A DNA stretch of 64,000 nt from Parvibaculum sp. (GTDB taxonomy: Bacteria; Pseudomonadota; Alphaproteobacteria; Parvibaculales; Parvibaculaceae), in NCBI GenBank assembly GCA_030645235.1, contig JAUSMV010000012.1, forward strand, positions 372,001 through 436,000, written 5' to 3'. The position numbers and the translations under genes are program-made. Shown piece by piece: positions 11,873 to 62,473 of the stretch. The notes beneath the pieces are model-generated. The model searched no databases. It saw nothing but the letters and a program-made list of their open reading frames with translations, and was not told where the DNA came from. Each line of letters starts with the position of its first letter. Position 1 is the stretch's first letter.

Positions 11873-14710
11873 CTACTGCCCCAACCGTTCGAGGAGCGCG
11901 GGGATGTGAACCTGATCGGCTTTGTAATTGCCGGTGAGCGTGTACATCACGAGATTGACGCCGAAGCGATAGGCCATTTCGCGTTGGCCTTCGCCGCCGG
12001 GCTCGCAGGGAAACATGGGGCGGCCCGACGCATTGCGTGCCCATGCGGCGGCATAATCATTGGAACCGACGATGATGGGCGACACGCCGTCTTTGGACAG
12101 CACGTCCTGTTCATCGTTGCTTGCATCGCCATTGGCGTTGTCGCCGACGACCCAGAGCGTGCCGCCTGTCCAGCGGCCCGGAAAATCCTGCATCAGATAA
12201 AAAGATTTCGTCATTACATGGCGTTTGGAAACGGGCGTCAGCGCAGGCAGATCCAGCTTGCCGATGAGGCGGCGCAGGGTTTGCGTGCCGGGTCCGACAA
12301 GACCTGAAATGTTGCGGTCCTGATCGCGCGTATCAAAGAGGATGGTGCCGCCATGTTCCATATAGGCGTTGACGCGGGCCAGCGCTGCGGGCGTGAGGCT
12401 TTCTTGTCCCGTCGTCATCGGCCAATAGAGAAGGGGGAAGAAGGCCAGCTCGTCGCGGTCCGGATTGACGCCGATGGGGGCGGCGGGATCAAAGGAGGTG
12501 CGGTTGCGCAAAACTTTTGAGAGACCTTCGAGACCGGCGCGGCTGGTCTCATCCACCGTCGCGTCACCTGTGATGACATAGGCAAGGCGCGTGTTGTTCG
12601 CCGCATCGAGTGCGAAGTCGAGCGTGTTTTTGTCATCTGCTTTGGCAGAGCTCGGATGGAGGAGCGAGGCAGCGATGAGGGCGAGTGCCACGGCGGGCAT
12701 GAAGCGGAAGCCACGGCGCGGGCGGCGGATGGGTGTTGTGTCGAACAGGCCCGTCACATAGAGCGAGGCGATGCCGTCAGTGATGATGAGGATGAGCGCG
12801 ATGAGCAGGAACAGCGGACGCAATTGCGTCTCGGATGTTTCAGCATAAATGTAACGTGAGGCGACGCCTGAGAGAGCGCCGACGGGTGTGACGGTGCTGT
12901 CTGCCCGCATGAGGTTGAGCGCGCGCGGGCTGTCGGCGGGGCCATAGAGGCCCGGCGGGTGGCGGGGGCTTGCGGGCGTGGCGTCAAACGTGGCGGCTGC
13001 GACAGGCGTGGCGAGGGCGGGCGGTGTTCCCAATCGTCCGTAGCCGTCAAGCGTGCGCACGGGGGCGAGCGATGTTTGCGGTGTGGCATTGGCGGTGGTG
13101 GCGAGCGCAACACCCTGAGCAAGGCCGATGATGCGGCGGAGTATGTCAACGAAGAGGCCGGAGCGCGGCAGGTTTGACCAATCGCTGTTTGCTGTCACAT
13201 GGACGAGAACAACGAGGCCCTTGTCGCGCGTGGTGGCGGTGACGAGCGGTGTGCCGTCCGCCAATCGTGCCCATGTGTGGTTGCCGAGATCGGCGGTGGG
13301 TTCGGCCAGTACCTGACGCGAGACGGTGACGTCATCGGGCACTGTCAGGCCGTTGAACGGGCTGTCGGCTTCAAAGGGTGCGAGATGTTGCGGTGTGGTC
13401 CATGAGAGCTCGCCACCGAGCGCGCGTCCGCCCATGCGCAGCGGCACGGGCATGAGTTGATCCGATGCCAGCACTTCGCCTTGCGCGGCAAGTTTGGGTC
13501 CGGCAAAGCGCACGAGCACGCCGCCTTTTTCAACCCATTGTGCGACGAGCGTGCGGTCGGTCGGTGTGAGATTGCCGATATCGGCAAGGATCAGCACGGA
13601 GAGCGGCGAGGACAGAAGATCAGCGATTTCGGATTTGCTGGCGCGCTCCGCCGATGCCTCACGGATTTCGGCATAGGGGCCGATGGCGCGGCTGAGATAA
13701 TAGCGGTCCGACAGAAGCTGCTGGGTTTCTTCTTCTGTTGAGCCGGACACAATGCCGACGGTGCGGCGGCGCCAGCGCTCATCGAGCAGGCTCATCGCTG
13801 CGGCGGATGTTTCGCCCGCGATCTCAAGGCGCGAGACTTTGTTGCGCAGATCAAGCGGCAGATCAAGGCGGGCGGATGTTTCGCCTTCATTGGCGTCAAA
13901 CGTGAAGGGCGCTCTGCCCAGCACGGCGCCTTGGGCGTTGAGCGCGATGATGCTGCCTGCGATGGAGTGTTTGTCGGCGGCGCGGATGAGGCGGGTGAGG
14001 AAGCCTTCGCCTTCGATGGCAGGTGGCAGAAGCGCGATGCCGCGTTCATTGGTGTTGGGCTCGACGACGTCGAGACCGGAGGAGCCTGCAATGGCGGAGA
14101 GCCCTGCGGCGAAATCAGTGGCCGAGCCATAGTCAATGCCATCGCTGAGCCAGATCACCTGCGGCGCGGCTTTGGCGACGTTGCTTGATTGGAGGCGTGT
14201 CAGTAGCGCGAGGCGGTCGGGCGAGAGCGGCAACGGCGTCAGTGTCCGGACGCTTGCATCATCGGCGGCGGCGAAATCGAGCGCGGGTACGGTGGCGGCG
14301 GGGACTGTGCCGACGATGAGGATGGGGCGATCGTCGCGACGGGCGGCAGCGATCAGTGTGTCGAGCGCATTGAAGCGGTCGCGCCAATGGGTGGCGGATG
14401 CCCAGCCATTATCCGTGACGATGAGAAGCGGGCCGGAACCCGCAACTGTCGGGGCGGGGTTCCACAAGGGGTTCGCCAGTGCCATGACAATGATCGCGGC
14501 AAGTGTGAGACGCAGTAGCAAAAGCCAGAGCGGTGTGTGGACCGGCGTTTCCTCGTCACGGTCGAGACCCACAAGCAAACGGATTGCGGGGAAGCGCACG
14601 CGCTTTGGCAGCGGCGGGCTGATGCGCAAAAGCCACCAGATGGCAGGCAGCGCGAGAAGGCCCAGAAGCATGAGGGGCGTGGCAAAGGCTAAGGCACCGA
14701 GAGACAACAT
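11873..14710 (-). CDS. BatA-like N-terminal domain / DUF4159 membrane protein
   Basis: A large 945-residue membrane protein. Its N-terminus (residues 1-95) is the double-transmembrane domain of aerotolerance (Bat) proteins, with FATPLMLLGLLALPAIWWLL, then PKRVRFPA. A long periplasmic region follows, then transmembrane helices near 640-700, then a C-terminal DUF4159 domain (from about 720: DFALDAANNTRLAYV, FDTRDQD). The vWA metal motif is degenerate (DNGWA). It lies 3 bp after the DUF58 gene. Probably an envelope partner of the MoxR ATPase. Confidence 0.8.
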   Translation of the reverse strand: MLSLGALAFATPLMLLGLLALPAIWWLLRISPPLPKRVRFPAIRLLVGLDRDEETPVHTPLWLLLLRLTLAAIIVMALANPLWNPAPTVAGSGPLLIVTDNGWASATHWRDRFNALDTLIAAARRDDRPILIVGTVPAATVPALDFAAADDASVRTLTPLPLSPDRLALLTRLQSSNVAKAAPQVIWLSDGIDYGSATDFAAGLSAIAGSSGLDVVEPNTNERGIALLPPAIEGEGFLTRLIRAADKHSIAGSIIALNAQGAVLGRAPFTFDANEGETSARLDLPLDLRNKVSRLEIAGETSAAAMSLLDERWRRRTVGIVSGSTEEETQQLLSDRYYLSRAIGPYAEIREASAERASKSEIADLLSSPLSVLILADIGNLTPTDRTLVAQWVEKGGVLVRFAGPKLAAQGEVLASDQLMPVPLRMGGRALGGELSWTTPQHLAPFEADSPFNGLTVPDDVTVSRQVLAEPTADLGNHTWARLADGTPLVTATTRDKGLVVLVHVTANSDWSNLPRSGLFVDILRRIIGLAQGVALATTANATPQTSLAPVRTLDGYGRLGTPPALATPVAAATFDATPASPRHPPGLYGPADSPRALNLMRADSTVTPVGALSGVASRYIYAETSETQLRPLFLLIALILIITDGIASLYVTGLFDTTPIRRPRRGFRFMPAVALALIAASLLHPSSAKADDKNTLDFALDAANNTRLAYVITGDATVDETSRAGLEGLSKVLRNRTSFDPAAPIGVNPDRDELAFFPLLYWPMTTGQESLTPAALARVNAYMEHGGTILFDTRDQDRNISGLVGPGTQTLRRLIGKLDLPALTPVSKRHVMTKSFYLMQDFPGRWTGGTLWVVGDNANGDASNDEQDVLSKDGVSPIIVGSNDYAAAWARNASGRPMFPCEPGGEGQREMAYRFGVNLVMYTLTGNYKADQVHIPALLERLGQ

Positions 14711-20208: not shown

Positions 20209-20388
20209 GCGGGGATAAAAATTTTCAACACGGATGAGGCTCGAATTTCATCGCATTTCTTGCAAGAGATTGAGTGTTTCCATGTCGAGATCGTTAGTCG
20301 GTTCGTCGAGTGTCTTGTCCGGCCGCGCGCAAGTCTATCCTCAGGCGGGGATAGGGATTTGGGGTGCCTCAAAATAAACTTGTCCCCG
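20209..20388 (+). repeat. three-copy intergenic repeat, copy B
   Basis: It opens at GCGGGGATAA, has the 56-nt core at 20255-20310 and continues to a GTCCCCG box. Compared with copy A, the core differs at only four positions. It begins 6 bp after the DUF1294 stop and lies between convergent genes, as do the other two copies. The spacing from GGGGATAA to the core is about 45 nt in all copies. Confidence 0.8.
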
Positions 20389-20410
20389 TGGTAAAGATGA
20401 TTTTTGATTT

Positions 20411-20461
20411 CACCTCCCCACACATCGCGCGTAAGCGCGAACAGAAAGGAGGGGGGAGGTG
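20411..20461. repeat. hairpin repeat with shared 30-nt motif, left of SRPBCC gene
   Basis: CACCTCCCC and GGGGAGGTG form the outer stem, and CGCGCGTAAGCGCG an inner hairpin followed by AACAGAAAGGAGGGGG. This 30-nt stretch (20426-20455) is repeated with one change at 21022-21051, on the other side of the SRPBCC gene and in the same orientation. Confidence 0.7.
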
Positions 20462-21009: not shown

Positions 21010-21056
21010 CCCTCTCCCGCTCGCGCGTAGGCGCGAACAGAAAGGAGGGGGAGAGG
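21010..21056. repeat. hairpin repeat with shared 30-nt motif, right of SRPBCC gene
   Basis: CCTCTCCC and GGGGAGAGG form the outer arms. The inside holds CGCGCGTAGGCGCG and AACAGAAAGGAGGGGG, the near-copy of 20426-20455. It lies just downstream of hemF, so it may also act as that gene's terminator. Confidence 0.7.
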
Positions 21057-50043: not shown

Positions 50044-50062
50044 TCTCTCTCTTATCGCAATA

Positions 50063-50091
50063 AAAGGCGGCTCCGACGAGCCGCCTTTTTG
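50063..50091 (+). terminator. rho-independent terminator of ilvE
   Basis: GGCGGCTC and GAGCCGCC form an 8-bp GC stem with a CGAC loop, with As before and five Ts after, 20 bp past the ilvE stop. Confidence 0.92.
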
Positions 50092-50113
50092 TTTTTAGCC
50101 TACCCCTTGCGGG

Positions 50114-50303
50114 GCGGGGATAAGTGGTTTTCAGGCTCGAAAGCAACATGTGTCATTCGACATTTCTTGCAAGAGATCGAGTGTTTCCATGCAGAGATCG
50201 TGTGTCAGTTCGTCGAGGGTCCGAGTGGAGGGCGCGGACGACAATCCCCAGGCGGGGATAAGCCCGGTTTGTCTGACTTATCCCCGAAAATAAATCTATC
50301 CCC
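50114..50303 (+). repeat. three-copy intergenic repeat, copy C
   Basis: It starts at GCGGGGATAAG, has the 56-nt core at 50162-50217 and ends with GGGGATAAG...CTTATCCCC (9-bp inverted arms, 50244-50285) and a further TATCCCCG. It fills the gap between ilvE and the convergent cupredoxin gene and touches the latter's stop codon. The AATCCCC and GGGCGCG parts after the core are shared with copy A. Confidence 0.8.
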
Positions 50304-50304
50304 G

Positions 50305-50793
50305 TCACTTTACCATCAGCGGGCCGGTCATGCCGAGTTCTGCGTGGCCGGGATAGTTGCAGGCAAATTCAAACGCACCCGCCTTGGTGAAGGTCCAGAT
50401 CAGCTCTTTCGTTTCGCCGGGTTCGGTGGAAACCGAATTTCCTTCCGCGTGTTCCATCTTCATGCCTGCCATTTCCGCCATCATGTCGCGATGGGCGGAT
50501 TGCTCATCGGCGCTGCCCAATGCGAGTTCATGCGGTTGCTCGCCTTTGTTGATGAGGACGAAGCGGATTGTCTCACCCGCTTTCACGTCAATGTTCTTCA
50601 CATCGAAGGCAATCTCGCTTGCTTCGATGGTGATGGTGCGGTTGACGTCTTTTGCAATGCCTTTATGGCCGATGCTCATTTCAGCCTGTGCGCCGTGATG
50701 CTTCATCCCGTCGGCGCTGGCGGTGGAAAGAGATGTTCTGGCAAATGTTGCAATGAGGGCGGCGGAGAGAAATGTGTTGCGTGTTTTCATCAT
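50305..50793 (-). CDS. exported cupredoxin (type 1 copper protein)
   Basis: A 162-residue protein with a signal peptide (to about 28) and a plastocyanin-like domain. His88 (QPHEL), Cys145 (FACNYPGH), His150 and Met155 are the type 1 copper ligands in the expected order. A His/Met-rich insert (about 101-116) may bind more copper. Last gene of the copper operon, probably a periplasmic copper carrier. The MM start at 50793 is chosen; the upstream frame overlaps copB. Confidence 0.9.
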   Translation of the reverse strand: MMKTRNTFLSAALIATFARTSLSTASADGMKHHGAQAEMSIGHKGIAKDVNRTITIEASEIAFDVKNIDVKAGETIRFVLINKGEQPHELALGSADEQSAHRDMMAEMAGMKMEHAEGNSVSTEPGETKELIWTFTKAGAFEFACNYPGHAELGMTGPLMVK

Positions 50794-54996: not shown

Positions 54997-55053
54997 CCTC
55001 CCCCCACCCAAAAAATCTATAGGAGATTTTTTGACCTCCCCACAAGGGGGAGG
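54997..55053 (+). repeat. composite hairpin repeat between moaD and moaE
   Basis: A pyrimidine run is followed by a 9-bp stem (AAAAAATCT, loop ATAGG, AGATTTTTT at 55010-55032) and then GACCTCCCCACAAGGGGGAGG. The same order of parts is seen at 62421-62473 (opposite strand) and 62517-62567. Confidence 0.75.
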
Positions 55054-55062
55054 TGGAGATAG

Positions 55063-62388: not shown

Positions 62389-62420
62389 AAGCAGAAGACG
62401 CGTTGCTTTCTTTGTCTCAA

Positions 62421-62473
62421 CCCTCCCCTTGAGGGAGGGTCAAAAAAGCTCCTTCAGATTTTTTGGGGCGGGG
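62421..62473 (-). repeat. composite hairpin repeat, opposite orientation
   Basis: Read on the minus strand it has CCCCGCCCC, a stem AAAAAATCT/AGCTTTTTT with loop GAAGG, then GACCCTCCCTCAAGGGGAGGG-type arms. It matches the element at 54997-55053 and forms an inverted pair with 62517-62567. Confidence 0.75.

Follow-up and report, generated by a model that had tools for sequence, protein, structure and literature searches.

According to PMC3733652, REP/BIME sequences of the GTAG and CGTC families are small, dispersed, palindromic repeats that lie mostly 3' of genes, often between unidirectional or convergent open reading frames (ORFs), with some copies inside genes and some families specific to one species; the CGTC REPs likewise come without a dedicated transposase. 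The bacterial MITEs, such as ERIC, RUP, Correia/NEMIS and the Rickettsia palindromic elements, are small, non-autonomous and both intergenic and intragenic, and some of them are fused to conserved genes (PMC2229807). Small bacterial repeats are usually seen as palindromes or transposon remnants. The matS and parS sequences are near-identical DNA sites that occur across a chromosome and are recognized by a protein.

The 64-kb stretch of Parvibaculum sp. DNA analyzed here (the window) contains three copies (A, B and C) of a repeat that is an unusual variant of the small interspersed bacterial repeats, uup-like and with a strongly kept, non-palindromic core. Small size, dispersal and gene-3', convergent and some in-gene positions are common to this repeat and REP/BIME, and the mixture of intergenic and intragenic positions is common to it and the MITEs, as far as the sources describe them. 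In contrast to REP/BIME, the best-kept part is the non-palindromic, uup-like core of ~38 nt and the hairpin is secondary; compared with the REPs mobilized by RAYT, many copies contain the hairpin TATCCCC..GGGGATA, but no Y1 transposase was found in this genome. ERIC, RUP, Correia/NEMIS and the Rickettsia palindromic elements tend to include many decayed copies, whereas the uup-like repeat combines few decayed copies in the sampled DNA with a long near-invariant core, likeness to a housekeeping gene and even spacing. It resembles matS and parS in forming near-identical sites spread over a chromosome, with a putative protein reader, and differs from them in that the motif is longer, embedded in inserted elements and seen in one species only.

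The repeat is of interest for its apparent birth from a conserved gene and for the long non-palindromic stretch kept amid near-background surroundings. The central 38 letters may well have a so far undescribed job; among the papers found in a literature search, judged mostly from titles and listings, none was recognized as describing this repeat. The function of bacterial interspersed repeats thus becomes testable, with the core as bait for a reader and, as a control, neighboring species in which no copies were found.

The element between ilvE and the cupredoxin gene

The copies in the window, with the evidence for the parts of copy C, are as follows.

50114-50304, + strand (core-sense orientation): copy C, whole element (sequence; insert relative to the syntenic locus L191)
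50114-50124, + strand: left end of copy C, GCGGGGATAAG (sequence; GGGGATA position counts across 90 copies)
50163-50200, + strand: core of copy C, offsets -4 to +33, TTTCTTGCAAGAGAT-N5-GTTTCCATG-NN-GAGATCG (column conservation; likeness to uup)
50243-50260, + strand: family hairpin of copy C at offset +76, AATCCCC-AGGC-GGGGATA (motif start and pairing counts)
50254-50262 and 50277-50285, + strand: 9-bp stem of copy C, GGGGATAAG and CTTATCCCC (sequence; RNAfold)
50296-50304, + strand: right end of copy C, CTATCCCCG, adjoining the cupredoxin stop (sequence)
2670-2865, + strand: copy A, with left end 2670-2678, core 2717-2754, hairpin 2797-2814 and a further GCGGGGATA at 2857-2865
20211-20389, + strand: copy B, with left GGGGATA 20211-20217, core 20256-20293 and hairpin 20336-20353

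Copy C lies shortly 3' of a terminator-like stem (~50062-50091) that follows ilvE (Pfam Aminotran_4) and ends at 50304, directly against the TGA stop of the minus-strand cupredoxin gene (50305-50307; assigned by Pfam Copper-bind). The initial annotation had placed the element correctly, after the ilvE terminator and touching the cupredoxin stop, with its end one base short (50303). That it is a dispersed repeat is borne out in the form of inserted DNA: in a relative, a Parvibaculum MAG (L191), the sequence to either side is syntenic and the aligned flanks are 38 nt apart, compared with 195 nt here (50106-50300). By IlvE, the closest named relative is a Parvibaculum MAG (94%), which makes Parvibaculum the probable host genus.

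The 9-bp stem described at the right end of copy C is located in the sequence and falls within a 10-bp stem (50253-50262/50277-50286) of the minimum-energy structure predicted by RNAfold for 50238-50304. For copy B, the annotation of a degraded stem holds, as RNAfold gives an 11-pair version in which three pairs are G-U. For copy A, a shifted pairing had been described; its two arms, TATCCCGC at 2835-2842 and GCGGGGATA at 2857-2865, are present, but the predicted fold pairs an AUCCCCG further to the left with the far arm.

A genome-wide family with a near-invariant core

A degenerate pattern of 20 bases has 91 matches in the whole genome (83 exact, five with one mismatch and three with two), 49 on the plus and 42 on the minus strand; one of these is the uup gene itself, which leaves 90 dispersed elements. 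The same pattern read backwards, used as a control, has no matches in the genome, so that the repetition far exceeds chance. A BLAST-type genome search with copy C gave at least 43 matches (40 of the 107 candidates were scored), and copy numbers are taken from the pattern search instead.

The layout that emerges from the 91 sequences is TTTCTTGCAAGAGAT, N5, GTTTCCATG, NN, GAGAT[C/T]G, a decaying stretch that ends with TTCGTCGAG, a spacer and, finally, TATCCCC-loop-GGGGATA. Each column at offsets -3 to +10, +16 to +24 and +27 to +31 is alike in at least 87 of the 91 sequences (uup included), and N5 is CGAGT, TCGAG, TGAGT or CGAGC in all but two of them. The spacer at +51 to +75 reaches at most 0.62 bit, and less than 0.41 bit except in two columns. 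A block recently copied unchanged was discarded on this profile, with spacers near background and the core far from it, and so was a small ORF, because stop codons interrupt every one of the six frames in 59-81 of the 90 copies. The core of ~38 nt is not palindromic.

Nearly every recognizable core is intact despite the drifted spacers. An nhmmer search of 464 kb (400 kb of contig C36 plus the window) yields 16 full copies along with a clear (E 2e-5) and a weak (E 0.03) partial match; the rows below these are self-complementary or at chance level, and no series of decayed copies appears. The flanks on the two sides of the core are correlated (r 0.23), which indicates that the copies share descent; N5 varies independently of flank similarity (r -0.02), and even in the 25 pairs whose left flanks agree at 80% or more, the state is shared in 32%, compared with 40% overall. 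A left GGGGATA is found at -53 to -49 from the core in 34 of the 90 copies and at another place within the span searched in seven; it was not found in 49. A right TATCCCCG-like end is seen in 26 copies, at scattered offsets.

Likeness to uup

In antisense, the elements resemble a segment of uup, which encodes an ABC-F ATPase: the reverse complement of the repeat core is similar to the Walker B/D-loop codons, and the hairpin, 76 bp away, shows a weaker similarity to the uup sequence at that offset. In gapless comparison with uup of the same genome, the 90 elements are 74-99% alike over -10 to +49, 30-36% over +50 to +79, and 57% and 42% over +80 to +99, with background (~25%) beyond +100. At the invariant core positions, uup equals the elements, and the uup core is without drift as judged by eye from the aligned sequences. 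At the hairpin offset, +76, uup carries AATGCCCGGGCGAGGATA, and it has AATGCCCGGGCGAGGATAAG where the elements have AATCCCC..GGGGATA.

Judging from these alignments, the core and the core-hairpin distance appear to derive from uup and the hairpin probably does so as well; it seems to have been perfected after leaving the gene. The fixed distance of +76 may, then, be inherited from uup rather than selected.

The core consensus was compared with 146 genomes, of which 12, this one included, have a match and none except this one has more than two. At the loci of these relatives that were inspected, which are part of the 12, the match lies antisense in uup-type ABC-F genes, at LDEPTNDLDMETLDLLQEM; one further match (L049) lies at another LDEPTNDLD-type stretch. 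The presence of uup in the relatives suggests that the direction was from uup to the element. No copies of the repeat were found in the stretches sampled from two sister genomes (326 kb of G003 and 400 kb of G013), which makes it unlikely that the repeat is essential to hosts in general. Scanning GTDB-r220 contigs and viral contigs, a set from which this or a very near genome may be missing, for exact matches to the pattern gave none.

The hairpin and its pairing

Among the 90 elements, the motif [ACT]ATCC[CT]C starts exactly at +76 in 54, at +75 in four and at +77 in one, is displaced in six (86, 87 and 87 in three copies, 97 in two, 59 in one) and is absent in 25, which include the copies in the QueD and AddB-like genes; control windows contain it in 13 of 364 cases. 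Five of the six clearly displaced motifs lie 10-11 or 21 bp further from the core, which is what a helically phased protein-DNA complex would require. The copies in the SDR and TlyA genes have a TATCCCC motif at +87.

In the 54 copies selected for a motif at +76, 271 of the 324 stem cells (pairs +77 to +82 with +87 to +92) are Watson-Crick, 20 are T.G and 33 are unpaired, which supports an inverted repeat in a fixed register. The proposal of the initial annotation that pairing is kept as the sequence changes is not supported as a sign of RNA structure. Double-sided changes at the stem are few, and covariation across all genomic copies is no stronger than that of the best unrelated columns, the stem excess over independent columns having a z of 3.8-4.1 compared with 4.35 and 4.17 for the highest-scoring sets of unrelated columns. 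Mutual information peaks between columns that are neighbors. Across the 90 copies, the paired fraction is 0.54, compared with 0.465 when the 3' arms are re-dealt (0 of 2000 trials as high), an excess that largely reflects copies having or lacking the entire motif. Folding energies lie within two standard deviations of shuffled sequences (z -1.8 for the 67-nt right end and 0.06 for 142 nt including the core), and the window has no Rfam match at gathering score. An RNA gene is rejected on these three grounds.

The 9-bp stem of copy C is not a family trait. Of the 90 copies, 32 lack the right arm in place, and in a further 40 nothing downstream complements it over 6 bp or more; a stem complement reaches at least 6 bp in 18, at least 8 bp in five and 9 bp in two. 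In control windows, a complement of 6 bp is reached in 2.7% of 1160.

Spacing and position in the genome

All 91 matches lie on four contigs that make up 3.37 of the 3.83 Mb. On subtraction, the remaining 82 contigs amount to ~461 kb; they carry no copy, with ~12 expected at the density of the four carrier contigs, and may be foreign or plasmid DNA. The gaps between the 91 sites are more even than those between random positions, with a coefficient of variation (CV) of 0.65 compared with a mean of 0.97 (0 of 20000 simulations as low), and short gaps are depleted, eight being under 10 kb compared with 20.8 for random positions; the minimum is 5089 bp and the mean interval ~37 kb. On contig C36 alone, compared with random intergenic positions, the CV is 0.48 against 0.95 (P 0.003). 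We infer that the even spacing reflects a chromosome-scale role, although it can also stem from target immunity or from recombinational loss of close repeats.

For 50 loci with 3-kb flanks, crude ORF calls, which wrongly mark copy C as in-gene and count the QueD and RimP loci as intergenic, place 40 between genes; by the same calls, the repeat follows a gene in core-sense orientation at 24 of these 40, and 19 of the 24 are convergent.

Insertion loci and copies inside genes

Relatives without the insert, or with much less sequence in its place, are available for several loci besides that of copy C. Between the aligned flanks of copy A there are 325 nt here compared with 86 nt in the closer sister, G003 (L154), and at locus L086, there are 312 extra nt between convergent stops compared with a relative (L164); L110 is a short form of ~112 nt. 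Left aside were L014, where the gap of the sister is longer, and L058, L060 and L125, where a single side is aligned. A check for target-site duplication established none; at L086 only, the BLAST ends overlap by 6 nt, between flanks too diverged for a call.

Copies inside genes occur in both orientations, some of them in conserved genes. The names QueD, TlyA and AddB are our assignments from sequence; Pfam matches at the in-gene loci are PTPS (QueD), S4+FtsJ (TlyA), adh_short (SDR), SpoU and RimP. The RimP and SpoU copies fall outside the matched domains, so the true start sites of these genes matter. Three of the in-gene loci are at odds with simple insertion. In TlyA, the core coincides with 21 extra nt, and the sequence to either side is native. 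QueD is unchanged in length compared with its relative, its core has two changes, and QueD of G003 already has a near-match; the RimP region is ~65 nt longer here, and G003 has a similar native stretch. Equal-length replacement, which QueD would fit, was rejected as a rule considering the G003 near-match at that site, the 21 nt gained in TlyA and the ~65 nt in the RimP region.

Mobilizing machinery

The Y1 transposase (PF01797), which is matched in five of 14 control genomes, and TniQ (PF06527), on which the 14 control genomes are also silent and which is matched in six of 27 genomes, have no matches in this genome, and mobilization of the RAYT or Tn7-like type was rejected for that reason. 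Two proteins of this genome match the reverse transcriptase family RVT_1 (L300 and L301), with no core near either locus, and a retron donor was, accordingly, discarded as well; RVT_1 has no match in G003 and G013. L300 (6399-7343, near 455 kb of contig C55) encodes a reverse transcriptase of 314 aa, a retron-like size, with a gap of ~1 kb upstream.

Origin and maintenance of the core

The reading to which we lean, with a confidence somewhat short of an even chance, is that of a uup-derived, REP/MITE-like family in which the core has been retained as a recognition site in the DNA for a candidate protein. A uup segment, comprising the Walker B/D-loop codons and the DNA to ~100 bp beyond them, would have become a small interspersed element, which measures ~110-310 nt at the loci for which relatives were compared and often has ends of the GGGGATA type. 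It would have spread to ~90 copies, most of them intergenic and many in gaps between convergent genes. Both the core and the hairpin motif would then be preserved as a sequence-specific site for a host or mobile-element protein while the spacers drift. Intactness of the core could be explained by selection, by spread from intact copies only or by conversion among copies; selection on a DNA site is favored by the tolerated changes in two short blocks of fixed length, by in-gene copies in both orientations and by the even spacing. We infer, then, that a protein binds the site and that selection, not homogenization, maintains it. It is rather unlikely, in our estimate, that the more specific version applies in full, namely, that a uup coding segment founded a species-specific, chromosome-wide set of ~90 near-identical bipartite sites (the core and a hairpin about seven helical turns away), largely intact inside TlyA-, SDR-, SpoU- and QueD-type genes, at mean intervals of ~37 kb.

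A plain non-autonomous transposon of the MITE/REP kind, with a transposase that would bind the core, the hairpin and the GGGGATA ends so that intact copies spread and the rest drifts, accounts for the insert-free or much shorter gaps in relatives at copy C, copy A and L086, for the short form at L110 and for the location of GGGGATA clusters on C36, where each of the 11 with at least two occurrences of this sequence sits at a core. Dead copies of such a transposon, however, should decay in the core as they do in the spacers, and only one or two partials are found in 464 kb; PF01797 and PF06527 have no matches in the genome, and some in-gene copies look altered in place, with no length change in QueD and 21 nt added in TlyA. 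We regard this explanation as somewhat unlikely. Under homogenization, exchange among the copies and uup, by ectopic gene conversion or by templated repair of short patches, would keep a functionless core uniform. In its favor, the QueD and RimP sites coincide with native partial matches in G003, core variants are shuffled among flank subfamilies, with the uncoupling of N5 from the flanks also expected from gene conversion, and uup matches the elements at the invariant positions. Yet N5 and NN stay polymorphic within the near-invariant block, ~38 nt is short for RecA-dependent conversion, and a retron donor is at odds with the reverse transcriptase loci, which have no core nearby; this possibility appears improbable. 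An element of transcribed 3' ends, in which hairpin and core act in the mRNA (by affecting its stability or termination, or by pairing in antisense with uup mRNA), would fit the frequent core-sense position after genes and the excess of T.G over C-A in the stem (20 to 6). Against it stand covariation that does not exceed the background maxima, the folding z of 0.06 for 142 nt, the lack of an Rfam match in the window and the in-gene copies on both strands; pairing to uup mRNA would be spoiled by CA in 61 of the 91 sequences where uup has TC and by a shifted N5 in 24. Altogether, an mRNA role seems quite improbable.

Other repeats

A candidate for an analogous repeat in G003 proved to be a CRISPR array (L165, 7400-8500) with a repeat of ~35 nt, GTTGCGGCTGGTCCGCGATTTTCTATCGGCTAAAC, to which a single stretch at 13242, on the opposite strand, is related. 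A near-identical direct repeat of 31 nt, TCGCGCGTAAGCGCGAACAGAAAGGAGGGGG, is found in the window at 20425-20455 and 21021-21051, 596 bp apart, the first just 3' of copy B. The window also contains an inverted pair of a second interspersed family, ACCCTCCCCTTGAGGG...GATTTTTTGACCCTCC, at 55001-55059 and 62415-62473. Counted over C36 and the window, the 16-mers of this family appear 14-16 times, at up to nine well-separated places on C36, compared with up to eight for the uup-like core; the stretches of G013 (400 kb) and G003 (326 kb) each contain only one 16-mer at four or more separate places.
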